Source: Candidatus Kaiserbacteria bacterium (GTDB lineage: Bacteria > Patescibacteriota > Minisyncoccia > Phycocordibacterales > UBA2100). Taken from it: a stretch of DNA of 42,559 bases. Shown here piece by piece: positions 27,716-36,050 of the stretch. The DNA is taken from assembly GCA_016186765.1 (NCBI GenBank), contig JACPLD010000001.1, forward strand, positions 1-42,559. Direction: 5' to 3'. Under the pieces are notes generated by a model. It saw only the letters and a program-made list of their open reading frames with translations, had not been told where the DNA came from and made no database searches. How positions within the stretch are numbered: the first letter of the stretch is position 1; each line of letters starts with the position of its first letter. The position numbers and the translations under genes were made by a program.

Positions 27716-27744
27716 TTGACCCCCATTCCCCACATCCCTATACT
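27716..27744 (+). promoter_or_regulatory. arsR-type gene promoter
   Basis: TTGACC (27716-27721), 17-nt spacer, TATACT (27739-27744), ATG 27752. Confidence 0.75.
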
Positions 27745-27773
27745 TTACTTTATGGTAAAGTATCGGGATGGGG
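27730..27773. promoter_or_regulatory. large operator-like palindrome over -10 and start codon
   Basis: ccacatccctatactttac-tttatg-gtaaagtatcgggatgggg: 19-bp arms with two mismatches. Confidence 0.75.
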
Positions 27774-28084
27774 AGAAAATGCTTGATGCGCTCGGCTTGC
27801 CGCTGCGTCGGAGCATGGTGCGTCGTCTATGGCACGGAGGTGCGATGTCTCTTTCGAAGCTCGCTGCGCCCTACGAACTCACGCTTCCGGCCGCTCTGAA
27901 GCATCTTCGTGTCCTCGAAGACTCTGGCATCGTCAAATCGCATAAACGCGGACGCGTACGCGTGTGCATATACAACCCTTCTGCCCTCAAAGAGCTCGGC
28001 GGCTGGCTTGCATCGCACAGCGCATTCTGGGAGTCGAGCTTCGATCGCTTTGAGGCAATTATTAATAAAAAGAAAAAGAACTAA
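27752..28084 (+). CDS. ArsR-family HTH transcriptional regulator
   Basis: MLDALGLPLRRSMVRRLWHGGAMSLSKLAAPYELTLPAALKHLRVLEDSGIVKSHKRGRVRVCIYNP. Confidence 0.92.
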   Translation: MVKYRDGEKMLDALGLPLRRSMVRRLWHGGAMSLSKLAAPYELTLPAALKHLRVLEDSGIVKSHKRGRVRVCIYNPSALKELGGWLASHSAFWESSFDRFEAIINKKKKN

Positions 28085-31658: not shown

Positions 31659-31701
31659 GTATACCCCGTGAGATAGAACCCCGGTATCTCATGGGGTATA
31701 C
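31659..31701. promoter_or_regulatory. 17-bp inverted repeat overlapping pyrB -10
   Basis: gtataccccgtgagata-gaaccccgg-tatctcatggggtatac (one G-T); TATACT 31697-31702, ATG 31710. Confidence 0.7.
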
Positions 31702-31709
31702 TCACTCCG

Positions 31710-32621
31710 ATGAAGCTGCACCATCTCATTGAGACCCAACAATTCGACCGGAGCTCGCTCAAGCAACTTTTTGATCTCGCCACCTCGCTCGAAGGCAAGC
31801 GCGAGCGCTCGCTCGAGGGCAAGATACTCGCCTCGCTCTTTTATGAGCCTTCGACGCGTACGCGGTTCTCGTTCGAGTCAGCGATGCTCCGGCTTGGCGG
31901 TGACGTTCTGACCATGGAGAGCGTGCGCGACTCCTCTTCCGACAAGAAAGGGGAGACGCTCGAAGACGCCATAAAGGTCATCAATCACTACGCCGACGCC
32001 ATCGTACTCCGGCATTCGGAGACCGGCTCGGCTGCCCGCGCAGCGGCGGTTTCCAAGGTTCCTATCATCAATGGTGGTGATGGCAATCTCGGGCAGCATC
32101 CCACGCAAGCCCTTCTCGATCTCTACACGGTGCAGCGCGAGCTTGGCCGCCAGGATGACATCCACATTGCATTTGTCGGTAATCTTAAATATTACCGCTC
32201 TGCTCGGTCGCTCTCCTATCTCCTCAGCAAGTACAAGAACATCCGCATCACGTTCGTCTCAGTGCCGGAGCTGCAGATGGGTGATGATGTCAAACAGCAT
32301 TTGCGCGAGAACAATGTGCGTTTCCAAGAGACGGATGATATGCAAAGCATCATCAGAGATGTGGATGTTCTCTATCAGACGCGGATAGCCAAGGAATGGA
32401 TAACAACGGGTGATTACGAATCGCTCAAGGGCCGATATGTCATCACGCGCCCTATAGCAGATTCTATGAAAAAGGGCGCCATCATCATTCATCCGCTACC
32501 GCGTGTGGACGAGATAGCGATAGAGGTGGACGATTCCCCACATGCCGTGTATTTCAAGCAGGTTGGCTACGGACTCATCGTCCGCATGGCCATACTCAAG
32601 ACCATTCTCAACGGAAAATAA
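31710..32621 (+). CDS. pyrB: aspartate carbamoyltransferase catalytic subunit
   Basis: SLFYEPSTRTRFSFESAMLRLGG, IVLRHSETGSA, INGGDGNLGQHPTQALLDLYT, HPLPRVDEIA. Confidence 0.96.
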   Translation: MKLHHLIETQQFDRSSLKQLFDLATSLEGKRERSLEGKILASLFYEPSTRTRFSFESAMLRLGGDVLTMESVRDSSSDKKGETLEDAIKVINHYADAIVLRHSETGSAARAAAVSKVPIINGGDGNLGQHPTQALLDLYTVQRELGRQDDIHIAFVGNLKYYRSARSLSYLLSKYKNIRITFVSVPELQMGDDVKQHLRENNVRFQETDDMQSIIRDVDVLYQTRIAKEWITTGDYESLKGRYVITRPIADSMKKGAIIIHPLPRVDEIAIEVDDSPHAVYFKQVGYGLIVRMAILKTILNGK

Positions 32622-33375: not shown

Positions 33376-33916
33376 TGCGGACTATTTTCGCATACTTCCA
33401 TCCCAGCCACACGCAAAACGAGCCCAAGAGTACTCCTCCAAGGACGTCACTTGGATAGTGAACTCCAAGGTAAATACGACTCAACGATACGAGAATGATA
33501 GTGAGTGCCATTCCTACAATGCCGACATATCGCCATATCTGTCGGTCGATACGTCGCCACGCGAGGAGTAAGAGAAAACCGTACAGCGCAACGGCAAGCG
33601 CAGCGTGAGCGCTTGGAAATGAATACCAGGTCTCGAGATAGGCTTGAAATTCGCCCGGTGGCCTCGCACGCTCGACGAGTCCCTTTAAGATAAGTATCAG
33701 TATTCCTGCCGACGCTACAGAAATCGAAAGGCCGAACGCATATGCGTATTTTCGCTTCGAAACGAGTATGAGCACTACGCATACAGCGACTGCGTAGATT
33801 AGCCATGCGCGCCCAAGCATGCTTATCCATATGAACATTGCTATGAGATTTGAATCTCGCACCGTAAAAAGCGCCTCAAGTATTCGCATGTCGAAGGCGG
33901 ACAGAGCCGCCATCAT
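33362..33916 (-). CDS. PAP2-family phosphatase
   Basis: KGLVERARPP, WYSFPSAHAALAVALYG, SRIYLGVHYPSDVLGGVLLG. Confidence 0.94.
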   Translation of the reverse strand: MMAALSAFDMRILEALFTVRDSNLIAMFIWISMLGRAWLIYAVAVCVVLILVSKRKYAYAFGLSISVASAGILILILKGLVERARPPGEFQAYLETWYSFPSAHAALAVALYGFLLLLAWRRIDRQIWRYVGIVGMALTIILVSLSRIYLGVHYPSDVLGGVLLGSFCVWLGWKYAKIVRNGHP

Positions 33917-34275
33917 ATGAGCGCAAAGAGGCGAGGCACAAAAATGATGGTGCCAATGATGAAGGCTGCGGCGGACGCAATGAGGACCGCTGCTGCGGCG
34001 AGATCTTTGATCTTCCTAATGTGAGGATCTGGGTCGCCCTTCACCATGTCGCAAAACTCCTCGAGTGCAGTATTAAAAGCTTCAGCCGCGAGCACGAAGC
34101 CGATGATGAGAATGACCAGAGCCCATTCGATGGGGGATATCGCAAGAAACCATCCGAGGAAGAGCACGAGAATCGCGACTGCTATTTGCAGCTTGAAACT
34201 GAATTCTTCCCGCCACGCGATCTGTATGCCATTCAATGCATACCGAACGTTGTGTACCTTTTTCTCGAGCGCCAT
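33913..34275 (-). CDS. diacylglycerol kinase family (undecaprenol kinase-like) protein
   Basis: VRYALNGIQIAWREEFSFKLQIA, EAFNTALEEFCDMV; ATG 34275 with TATAAT seven nt upstream on the minus strand. Confidence 0.9.
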   Translation of the reverse strand: MALEKKVHNVRYALNGIQIAWREEFSFKLQIAVAILVLFLGWFLAISPIEWALVILIIGFVLAAEAFNTALEEFCDMVKGDPDPHIRKIKDLAAAAVLIASAAAFIIGTIIFVPRLFALI

Positions 34276-34351
34276 CCTCCGTATTATACGCTGCCTTTTT
34301 TGCTGACGGACATCTTGCCGAAGAGAGAAGGGTAGATGCCGTTGTCCCCAT

Positions 34352-34380
34352 CCAAATTTGCAAGAAACTTGCAAATTTGG
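34352..34380. promoter_or_regulatory. perfect 13-bp-arm palindrome upstream of Fur-family gene
   Basis: ccaaatttgcaag-aaa-cttgcaaatttgg followed by TAGGGT (34381-34386). Confidence 0.8.
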
Positions 34381-34396
34381 TAGGGTGGGTGGGTTC

Positions 34397-34846
34397 ATGG
34401 GGCACGGTTATAAATATTACAAAGGAAGCGACAGAAAAGTCTTACAGGCCGTTTTACGCGACAAGGATTTTTATTCCACTGAGGGGCGCCTGCAACTGCT
34501 CTCGTTTCTAAAAAAGGCCTCGGCACCAGTATCTGTTCCCGAAGTCACCAAGCAGATCGGCAAAAATCTTGTCGAAGCCAATGTCTACCGCGCGCTTGAA
34601 GCGCTTGCCGACGCCGGAGTTCTTGCTCGTTCCGACATCCGACGCGGCGGCGCACACTATGAATATCCTCATTCGCACCATCACCATATCGTCTGCAGCA
34701 ATTGTGGCCATACTGAGGAGGTCGAAGATTGTGGTGGTAAGTCGATGGAGAGACGCGCATTTCGTAACTCAGAGTCATTTGCGGAAGTTCGGACGCATGC
34801 GCTCGAATTTTTTGGCTTGTGCAGAGCCTGCGCGCACGCGCGATGA
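34397..34846 (+). CDS. Fur-family (Zur-like) metal-responsive regulator
   Basis: RLQLLSFLKKASAPVSVPEVTKQIGKNLVEANVYRALEALADAGVLARSDIRRGGAHYEYPHSHHHHIVCSNCGHTEEVEDC...CRAC. Confidence 0.93.
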   Translation: MGHGYKYYKGSDRKVLQAVLRDKDFYSTEGRLQLLSFLKKASAPVSVPEVTKQIGKNLVEANVYRALEALADAGVLARSDIRRGGAHYEYPHSHHHHIVCSNCGHTEEVEDCGGKSMERRAFRNSESFAEVRTHALEFFGLCRACAHAR

Positions 34847-35598
34847 TTATGCTCGAAGTACTTGCTGCCTCGCTTCTCGTCATGCTCGTCTCGCTGTCGG
34901 GAAAGCTCATCACATGGCACGGCGTAGGACCTCTCATCGAGCGCAATCTGCACTTTTTTGTAAGTTTTGCAGCAGGCGTTCTCCTTATCATCGCCTATAG
35001 TCTTTCGACAGAGCTTGTCGAGCATGCGGGTTCGCTTTCGACAGGACTGCCGTGGATCGCGATAGGTGCAGTCGTCGTGCTTGTCGCCTTTCGCTACATT
35101 CCGCAGTTCCATCATCACCACGACAAAGAAGACCACCCTCATTCGATGATCGATGTCAATCGCCTCTTCGCGAGCGATGCTGTACACAATATTGGCGATG
35201 GTATCGTGATCGTTGTGTCGTTTGCCGCCTCGCCCGTGCTTGGTATCGCGAGCACCATAAGCATCATGGTGCACGAAATGCTCCAAGAGATCTCGGAATT
35301 CTTCGTGTATCGGGAAGCCGGCCTACCGGTTCGCCTCGCACTCACCTTAAATTTCATTACCTCAGGCACCATTCTCATTGGTACATTTGGTGCATTCTTT
35401 CTCTTGGAGAGATTCGAGGCGCTCGAAGTGCCGCTGCTTGGTCTGTCAGCAGGTTCTTACCTCGTGGTAGTCTTTCATGATCTCATTCCGCACTCGATCT
35501 CGAAGGGTAACGGCCGCGCTCATCTCGCAAAACACGCAGCGTTTTTTGTGGCAGGTCTCGCCCTCATGGCGGTTCTCGTCACGTTTCTCCCGGCATAG
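34843..35598 (+). CDS. ZIP-family metal transporter
   Basis: FFVSFAAGVLLIIAYSLSTEL, HHHHDKEDHPHS, SDAVHNIGDGIVIVVSF, MVHEMLQEISEFFVY; ATGA overlap with Fur gene. Confidence 0.92.
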   Translation: MIMLEVLAASLLVMLVSLSGKLITWHGVGPLIERNLHFFVSFAAGVLLIIAYSLSTELVEHAGSLSTGLPWIAIGAVVVLVAFRYIPQFHHHHDKEDHPHSMIDVNRLFASDAVHNIGDGIVIVVSFAASPVLGIASTISIMVHEMLQEISEFFVYREAGLPVRLALTLNFITSGTILIGTFGAFFLLERFEALEVPLLGLSAGSYLVVVFHDLIPHSISKGNGRAHLAKHAAFFVAGLALMAVLVTFLPA

Positions 35599-35630: not shown

Positions 35631-36050
35631 ATGCAGCCAGTGTGGCATGGGGCTATCGGACTCGGGCTGATCGTAGCCTTTTTTTGCGTCCTCGGAGTGA
35701 TTGCATATCAGCTCTACGGACCGGGTATCGATTTCGATGTTCCGGATTATTTGCTTCCAGCCGGCTGGGCGACCACGACCGGGCAGGCGGTTGTAGGAGA
35801 CCCGCTCGCAGACTATGCGGGAGCGCTGTTCGAATGTGCTGATGAAAAAGCCCTCAAAGCAGAATTTCTCGATGGGAGCATTCGCCTCGTACTTTCTGAC
35901 GGTCGACAGCTGAGCCTTCCGCAAACGGTTTCGGCAAGTGGCGTGCGATACGCGAATACGGATGAAAGCTTCGTATTTTGGAACAAAGGGATTACGGCAT
36001 ATATTGAGGAGAGCGGAACGCAAACATACTCATCCTGTCTGCAGCAATAA
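35631..36050 (+). CDS. MliC-family (C-type lysozyme inhibitor-like) membrane-anchored protein
   Basis: TM anchor then FECADEKALKAEFLDGSIRLVLSDGRQLSLPQTVSASGVRYANTDESFVFWNKGITAYIEESGTQTYSSC. Confidence 0.8.
   Translation: MQPVWHGAIGLGLIVAFFCVLGVIAYQLYGPGIDFDVPDYLLPAGWATTTGQAVVGDPLADYAGALFECADEKALKAEFLDGSIRLVLSDGRQLSLPQTVSASGVRYANTDESFVFWNKGITAYIEESGTQTYSSCLQQ

Follow-up and report, generated by a model that had tools for sequence, protein, structure and literature searches.

Autoregulated operons that join a zur gene to an importer gene are already known (PMC6103462). In Streptomyces coelicolor the operator of the zinc regulator Zur is TGAAAATGATTTTCA, and leaderless transcripts have been reported in Corynebacterium glutamicum (PMC2823685). 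The box of Nur, the nickel-sensing regulator of Streptomyces, is tTGCaa-N5-ttGCAA in S. coelicolor (PMC3919588), and a divergent Fur operator, gcTTATTTtgAA-N3-TTcaAAATAAgc, has been described for the reduced genome of Mycoplasma genitalium (PMC6968530). The locus considered here lies in a 42,559-nucleotide stretch of a Candidatus Kaiserbacteria genome (contig JACPLD010000001.1), called the window below, and consists of a palindrome followed by the genes of a Fur-family regulator and a ZIP metal transporter. It is quite likely an autoregulated zinc-uptake homeostat, in which the Fur-family protein would act as Zur on the palindrome. The host belongs to the Patescibacteria (candidate phyla radiation), in which, to our knowledge, almost nothing is known about gene regulation, and most members of which are uncultivable. 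No Zur operator for this phylum was found in the literature searched, a search outside which most subscription papers lay.

The palindrome, CCAAATTTGCAAG-AAA-CTTGCAAATTTGG, occupies positions 34352..34380 and, exactly as the sequence-only reading had it, is perfect, with 13-bp arms, a 3-bp centre and 0 mismatches; the operator core within it is TTGCAAGAAACTTGCAA (34358-34374). Shuffled sequence is expected to yield 0 such repeats, and among the inverted repeats reported in the window this is the longest perfect one with a short loop, extended imperfectly by the inverted-repeat search to 34347-34385. In pattern searches, by which all site counts across the genome were made, TTGCAAGNNNCTTGCAA occurs exactly once in 754,943 bases (the genome being 96% complete), and the palindrome is therefore not a dispersed repeat. 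After a gap of 16 bp follows the Fur-family gene (34397..34846, plus strand, with its ATG at 34397 and its TGA at 34844-34846; 149 amino acids, PF01475 E=1.5e-16). The ATG of the ZIP gene (34843..35598, plus strand, 250-amino-acid class, PF02535 E=2.4e-14) lies at 34843-34845, and the ATGA overlap claimed for the two genes is thus real.

That the box belongs to the regulator is shown by comparison with relatives. Within the family, 22 of 70 genomes carry a Fur homologue, and a TTGCAA-N5-TTGCAA-like box stands in the promoter of nearly all of these homologues. Outside the family, 53 order- and phylum-level loci served as the test set, the core TTGCAA-N5-TTGCAA having been fixed before they were read; the search zone was the 110 bp upstream of the Fur homologue, and the controls were 1344 windows of equal size taken from other parts of these loci. 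With up to two mismatches the core was found at 37 of the 53 loci against 17 of the control windows, and a refined pattern, WTGCRA-N5-TYGCAW, written after all loci had been seen, was found with at most one mismatch at 44 loci against 9 control windows (0 for the reversed pattern); related loci are not independent, so p-values for these counts are not literal and it is the effect size that matters. The box also accompanies other arrangements of the two genes: in G023, G034, G037 and G043 divergent fur and ZIP have a single box between them, and in G045 it stands directly 5' of ZIP, about 2.2 kb from fur.

The sister genomes add a pattern of joint loss. In this group dgkA (diacylglycerol kinase; in the window 33913..34275, minus strand, start most likely at 34275, PF01219 E=4.7e-33) and ZIP are divergent neighbours, and the palindrome does lie between the operon and dgkA, as its coordinates bear out. 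In the window's genome, and likewise in G015 and G036, box and fur stand between dgkA and ZIP. In G013, G014, G017, G020, G032 and G058, dgkA and ZIP are divergent and only 32-64 bp apart, and neither the box nor any Fur-family gene is present in the genome. Box and fur thus come and go together, and dgkA and ZIP stay; because sister genomes keep dgkA beside ZIP without box and fur, the box probably does not control dgkA. The sequence-only reading was to be given up if the palindrome failed to be conserved along with the regulator or proved to be a scattered repeat, and it survived both checks: the box is conserved with the regulator, lost with it and single-copy.

The first TTGCAA half-site (34358..34363, plus strand) would also serve as a -35 element, as suggested by the geometry of the sequence. 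It is separated by 17 bp, the standard -35 to -10 spacing, from TAGGGT (34381..34386, plus strand), a -10-like hexamer that abuts the palindrome where the sequence-only reading had placed it, and whose weakness is taken up below. The nearest relative, locus L011, has the same geometry, TTGCAA-17-TATTCT, with TATTCT at the position of TAGGGT; in most loci the box is followed by a -10-like hexamer starting no more than about 6 bp away, and the distance from box to ATG is mostly 17-21 nt. Transcription of fur-ZIP should probably begin at the ATG or a few bases before it, giving a leaderless or nearly leaderless mRNA.

Among described systems, the actinobacterial Zur proteins (S. coelicolor Zur, Mycobacterium tuberculosis FurB and C. 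glutamicum Zur) resemble the present one, whose targets and -35 are predicted, in being Fur-family proteins with zinc-importer targets, and in having an operator whose palindromic 7-1-7 core sits within a longer inverted repeat and overlaps the -35; the leaderless transcripts of C. glutamicum parallel the nearly leaderless mRNA predicted here. The box of the relatives studied here, TGCAAATNATTTGCA, is likewise a 7-1-7 Fur-family operator; each of its half-sites departs at one base from that of the actinobacterial box, and the known Zur box sequence is to that extent not matched. Operators vary by phylum, and the sequence of a box does not define the family of its regulator. The core is identical in sequence and spacing to the Streptomyces Nur box (PMC3919588), and for this reason the box alone does not reveal the metal; Nur controls sodF and nickel genes, whereas zinc importers are linked here. 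Classical Fur shares with the present system the fold, the Cys4 structural site and the dyad symmetry of the operator, but its box, GATAATGATAATCATTATC, has a different half-site, and no iron genes are linked here. The contrast with the classical Fur box drawn by the sequence-only reading therefore holds for the half-site, yet the box is less alien than it implied, being close to the actinobacterial Zur box and equal in its core to the Nur box. The Fur box of M. genitalium also lies beside the -10, in a reduced genome and with an N3-centred dyad as here, but its half-site sequence and targets are unrelated to those at this locus (PMC6968530).

The regulator scores 61 bits against PF01475 (cut-off 23.1) over residues 27-138, which places it in the Fur superfamily, and it is the sole PF01475 protein in the genome. 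Its AlphaFold model (mean predicted local distance difference test score, pLDDT, 85) has the Fur-family fold of a winged helix and a dimerisation domain, with a predicted template modelling score (pTM) of 0.64 that leaves the domain arrangement uncertain. A fold search in the PDB returned Fur, PerR or Zur throughout (probability 1.00), the best matches being PerR and Fur, and gave no preference for Zur over the other two; none of the NCBIfam subfamily models matched above its own cut-off. In sequence its PDB relatives are M. tuberculosis FurB/Zur, the best match, and Fur, and no specific relation to Streptomyces Nur was found, its structure 3eyy ranking under both. The two CxxC pairs of the Cys4 structural zinc site (C100, C103, C142 and C145) are invariant in 17 homologues. 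The regulatory ligands of FurB, which we take to be D62, C76, H81 and H83 at site 2 and H80, H82, E101 and H118 at site 3, are matched in part, namely at the HHHH histidines and at H118, with which the invariant H134 aligns; E101 is without a clear equivalent. Invariant E89, and C112, present in 16 of the 17 homologues, could replace the missing FurB ligands. The protein would be a Zur by function, an assignment that follows from the linked transporters ZIP, ZnuA and ZnuC and not from the metal-site residues.

These transporters recur beside the box. ZIP or ZnuA was found within the fetched stretch at 54 of 78 loci, and among the neighbours of box-bearing regulators are ZIP of this type, ZIP of a second type, and ZnuA, behind which ZnuC stands in many cases; ZnuA is well identified in the relatives (E=1e-86), and the ZnuA-type binding proteins at these loci have His-rich stretches. 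Zinc is the common substrate of ZIP and ZnuA/ZnuC importers. Comparison shows that the regulator belongs with importers of the zinc type, and because of this linkage zinc is its likeliest metal. In the window the ZIP protein scores 53.7 bits against PF02535 (cut-off 35.1), its motifs HNIGDG (of the type in transmembrane helix 4) and HEMLQE (of the type in helix 5) align with the metal helices of BbZIP, and BbZIP entries are its closest solved relatives; the His-rich loop HHHHDKEDHPHS reported earlier is present. The closest named relative, from a Candidatus Kaiserbacteria genome, is 62% identical in Fur and 71% in ZIP. The autoregulated Zur/Fur-ZIP zinc module of the sequence-only reading is very probably correct; it is upheld by comparison in its tie between box and regulator, and its Zur and zinc parts derive from the linked transporters.

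An operon of the same architecture that senses and imports nickel, manganese or iron in place of zinc is unlikely, although the identity of the core TTGCAA-N5-TTGCAA with the published Nur box would suit it, ZIP proteins are able to transport divalent metals besides zinc, and the sequence and fold matches leave Zur, Fur, PerR and Mur unseparated. Against it, one and the same family of box-bearing regulators occurs with importers of three types, ZnuA/ZnuC and two sorts of ZIP, whose shared substrate is zinc, and the best PDB sequence match is the zinc regulator FurB. Nickel targets (NiSOD/FeSOD, nickel transport) were not found in the operon or among the linked genes of the relatives, which are ZIP, ZnuA, ZnuC and YibE/F.

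Two further explanations would detach the palindrome from the regulator. A strong inverted repeat placed between divergent genes might be an RNA hairpin or terminator, or might serve the dgkA operon, but this is very improbable: no T-run terminator was found, and the inferred promoter puts the box upstream of the fur-ZIP start and so outside the mRNA, by which a hairpin role in that transcript would be excluded. Moreover, where there is no fur, dgkA is retained with no box beside it, and box and fur remain together at loci that have no neighbouring dgkA. That a different regulator binds the box, which would then lie near fur by coincidence, has a slimmer chance still; G022, which keeps a box without a detectable Fur-family gene, speaks for it, but that genome is only 72% complete, box and fur are jointly absent from six other sister genomes, and the association of box and Fur-family gene holds phylum-wide.

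Several observations weigh against the zinc-homeostat reading and its promoter. The site-2 positions D62 and C76 (Asp62 and Cys76 in actinobacterial Zur) are unconserved in the alignment of the regulator with FurB, the refined box pattern was drawn up with all loci in view, and no box was found at 9 of the 53 outside loci. At locus L018 (G021, 1442-1473) divergent fur and ZIP are separated by a different perfect palindrome with 15-bp arms, ATTCACTAACGCAACTTGTTGCGTTAGTGAAT, which resembles a variant box of the form ACGCAA-N4-TTGCGT with a spacer one base shorter. The box that G022 keeps without a detected fur also counts against the reading; it is TTGCAAGAAATTTGCGT at locus L039, directly 5' of ZIP at a distance of about 50 bp. 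In the window itself TAGGGT is a poor -10, with 3 of 6 consensus matches, and a promoter scan called no consensus promoter there, TAGGGT included.

On the zinc-homeostat reading, a metal-loaded dimer of the Fur-family protein would bind the palindrome, cover the TTGCAA half-site at the -35 position and touch the -10-like hexamer, and so block RNA polymerase, as is suggested by the first half-site standing at -35 and the palindrome ending at that hexamer. When cytoplasmic zinc is low the repressor would be released and fur-ZIP mRNA made; ZIP would then bring in zinc, and fresh repressor would close the operon again, the ATGA overlap allowing translational coupling of the two products. What we infer here is that the protein binds DNA, which metal it senses, that it represses and does not activate, and where transcription starts.

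The regulon in this genome appears to be this operon alone, of which a scan of the kind proposed by the sequence-only reading gave one perfect copy of the box, although about 4% of the genome may be missing; actinobacterial Zur regulons comprise several operons. A search of the window's genome for ZnuA found none. Besides the operator there is a single exact degenerate site, TTGCGAGCGTTTTGCAT at C5:156982, 13 bp 5' of the rplC start; it was rejected as chance because eight relatives do not have it ahead of rplC and the reversed control pattern likewise produces one match. Two one-mismatch TTGCAA-N5-TTGCAA sites, C1:80947 and C1:89760, were rejected as operators, both lying inside long open reading frames. 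Also excluded were TTGCAAATCATTTGCAA, inside pilus-assembly-like and TatD genes in G009 and on contig C4 of G021, and TTGCAAATAATTTACAA, beside aroE-like genes in G018 and G053, genomes without a Fur match.

The mechanism itself is ordinary, and what it extends to is an operator, very probably the regulator's own binding site, that can be read from sequence across a phylum of uncultured bacteria. A broader proposition, which we regard as evenly balanced, is that a Zur lineage with a distinct operator code, WTGCRA-N5-TYGCAW, runs through the whole of the Patescibacteria, in which the 5' half-site also acts as the -35 of a near-leaderless promoter, the regulatory zinc site has E89 and C112 in place of Asp62/Cys76, and one operator serves one operon as a homeostat here. 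An operator legible in many families would make zinc regulons predictable straight from metagenomes, and likewise zinc genes not yet recognised, for instance those of the YibE/F proteins that recur at these loci. The window module would be a very small complete homeostat of one repressor, one importer and apparently one operator.

A YibE/F-like membrane protein (PF07907) was found beside the box-bearing Fur-family gene, within the fetched stretch, at 36 of 78 loci, among them L020, L026, L029, L030, L031 and many of L080-L138, with none in the window; it may take part in zinc homeostasis. At L027 (1367-1480) and L028 (1361-1490) two boxes lie between fur-znuA-znuC and a divergent gene, the product of which is of the surface type and has an N terminus like those that bind peptidoglycan. 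The second box (ATGCAACTGACTTGCAT and ATGCAATATATTTGCAT, respectively) stands just 5' of that gene, which possibly encodes a zinc-regulated surface protein. The gene 3' of ZIP in the window (35631-36050) encodes an MliC-like protein with a lysozyme-inhibitor domain, and at L026 a small protein similar to it seems to follow YibE/F. Two other strong inverted repeats are present in the window, one at 27726-27777 (23-nt arms, 87%) and one at 31659-31701 (17-nt arms, 94%), the latter just 5' of an open reading frame at 31710 that resembles aspartate carbamoyltransferase.
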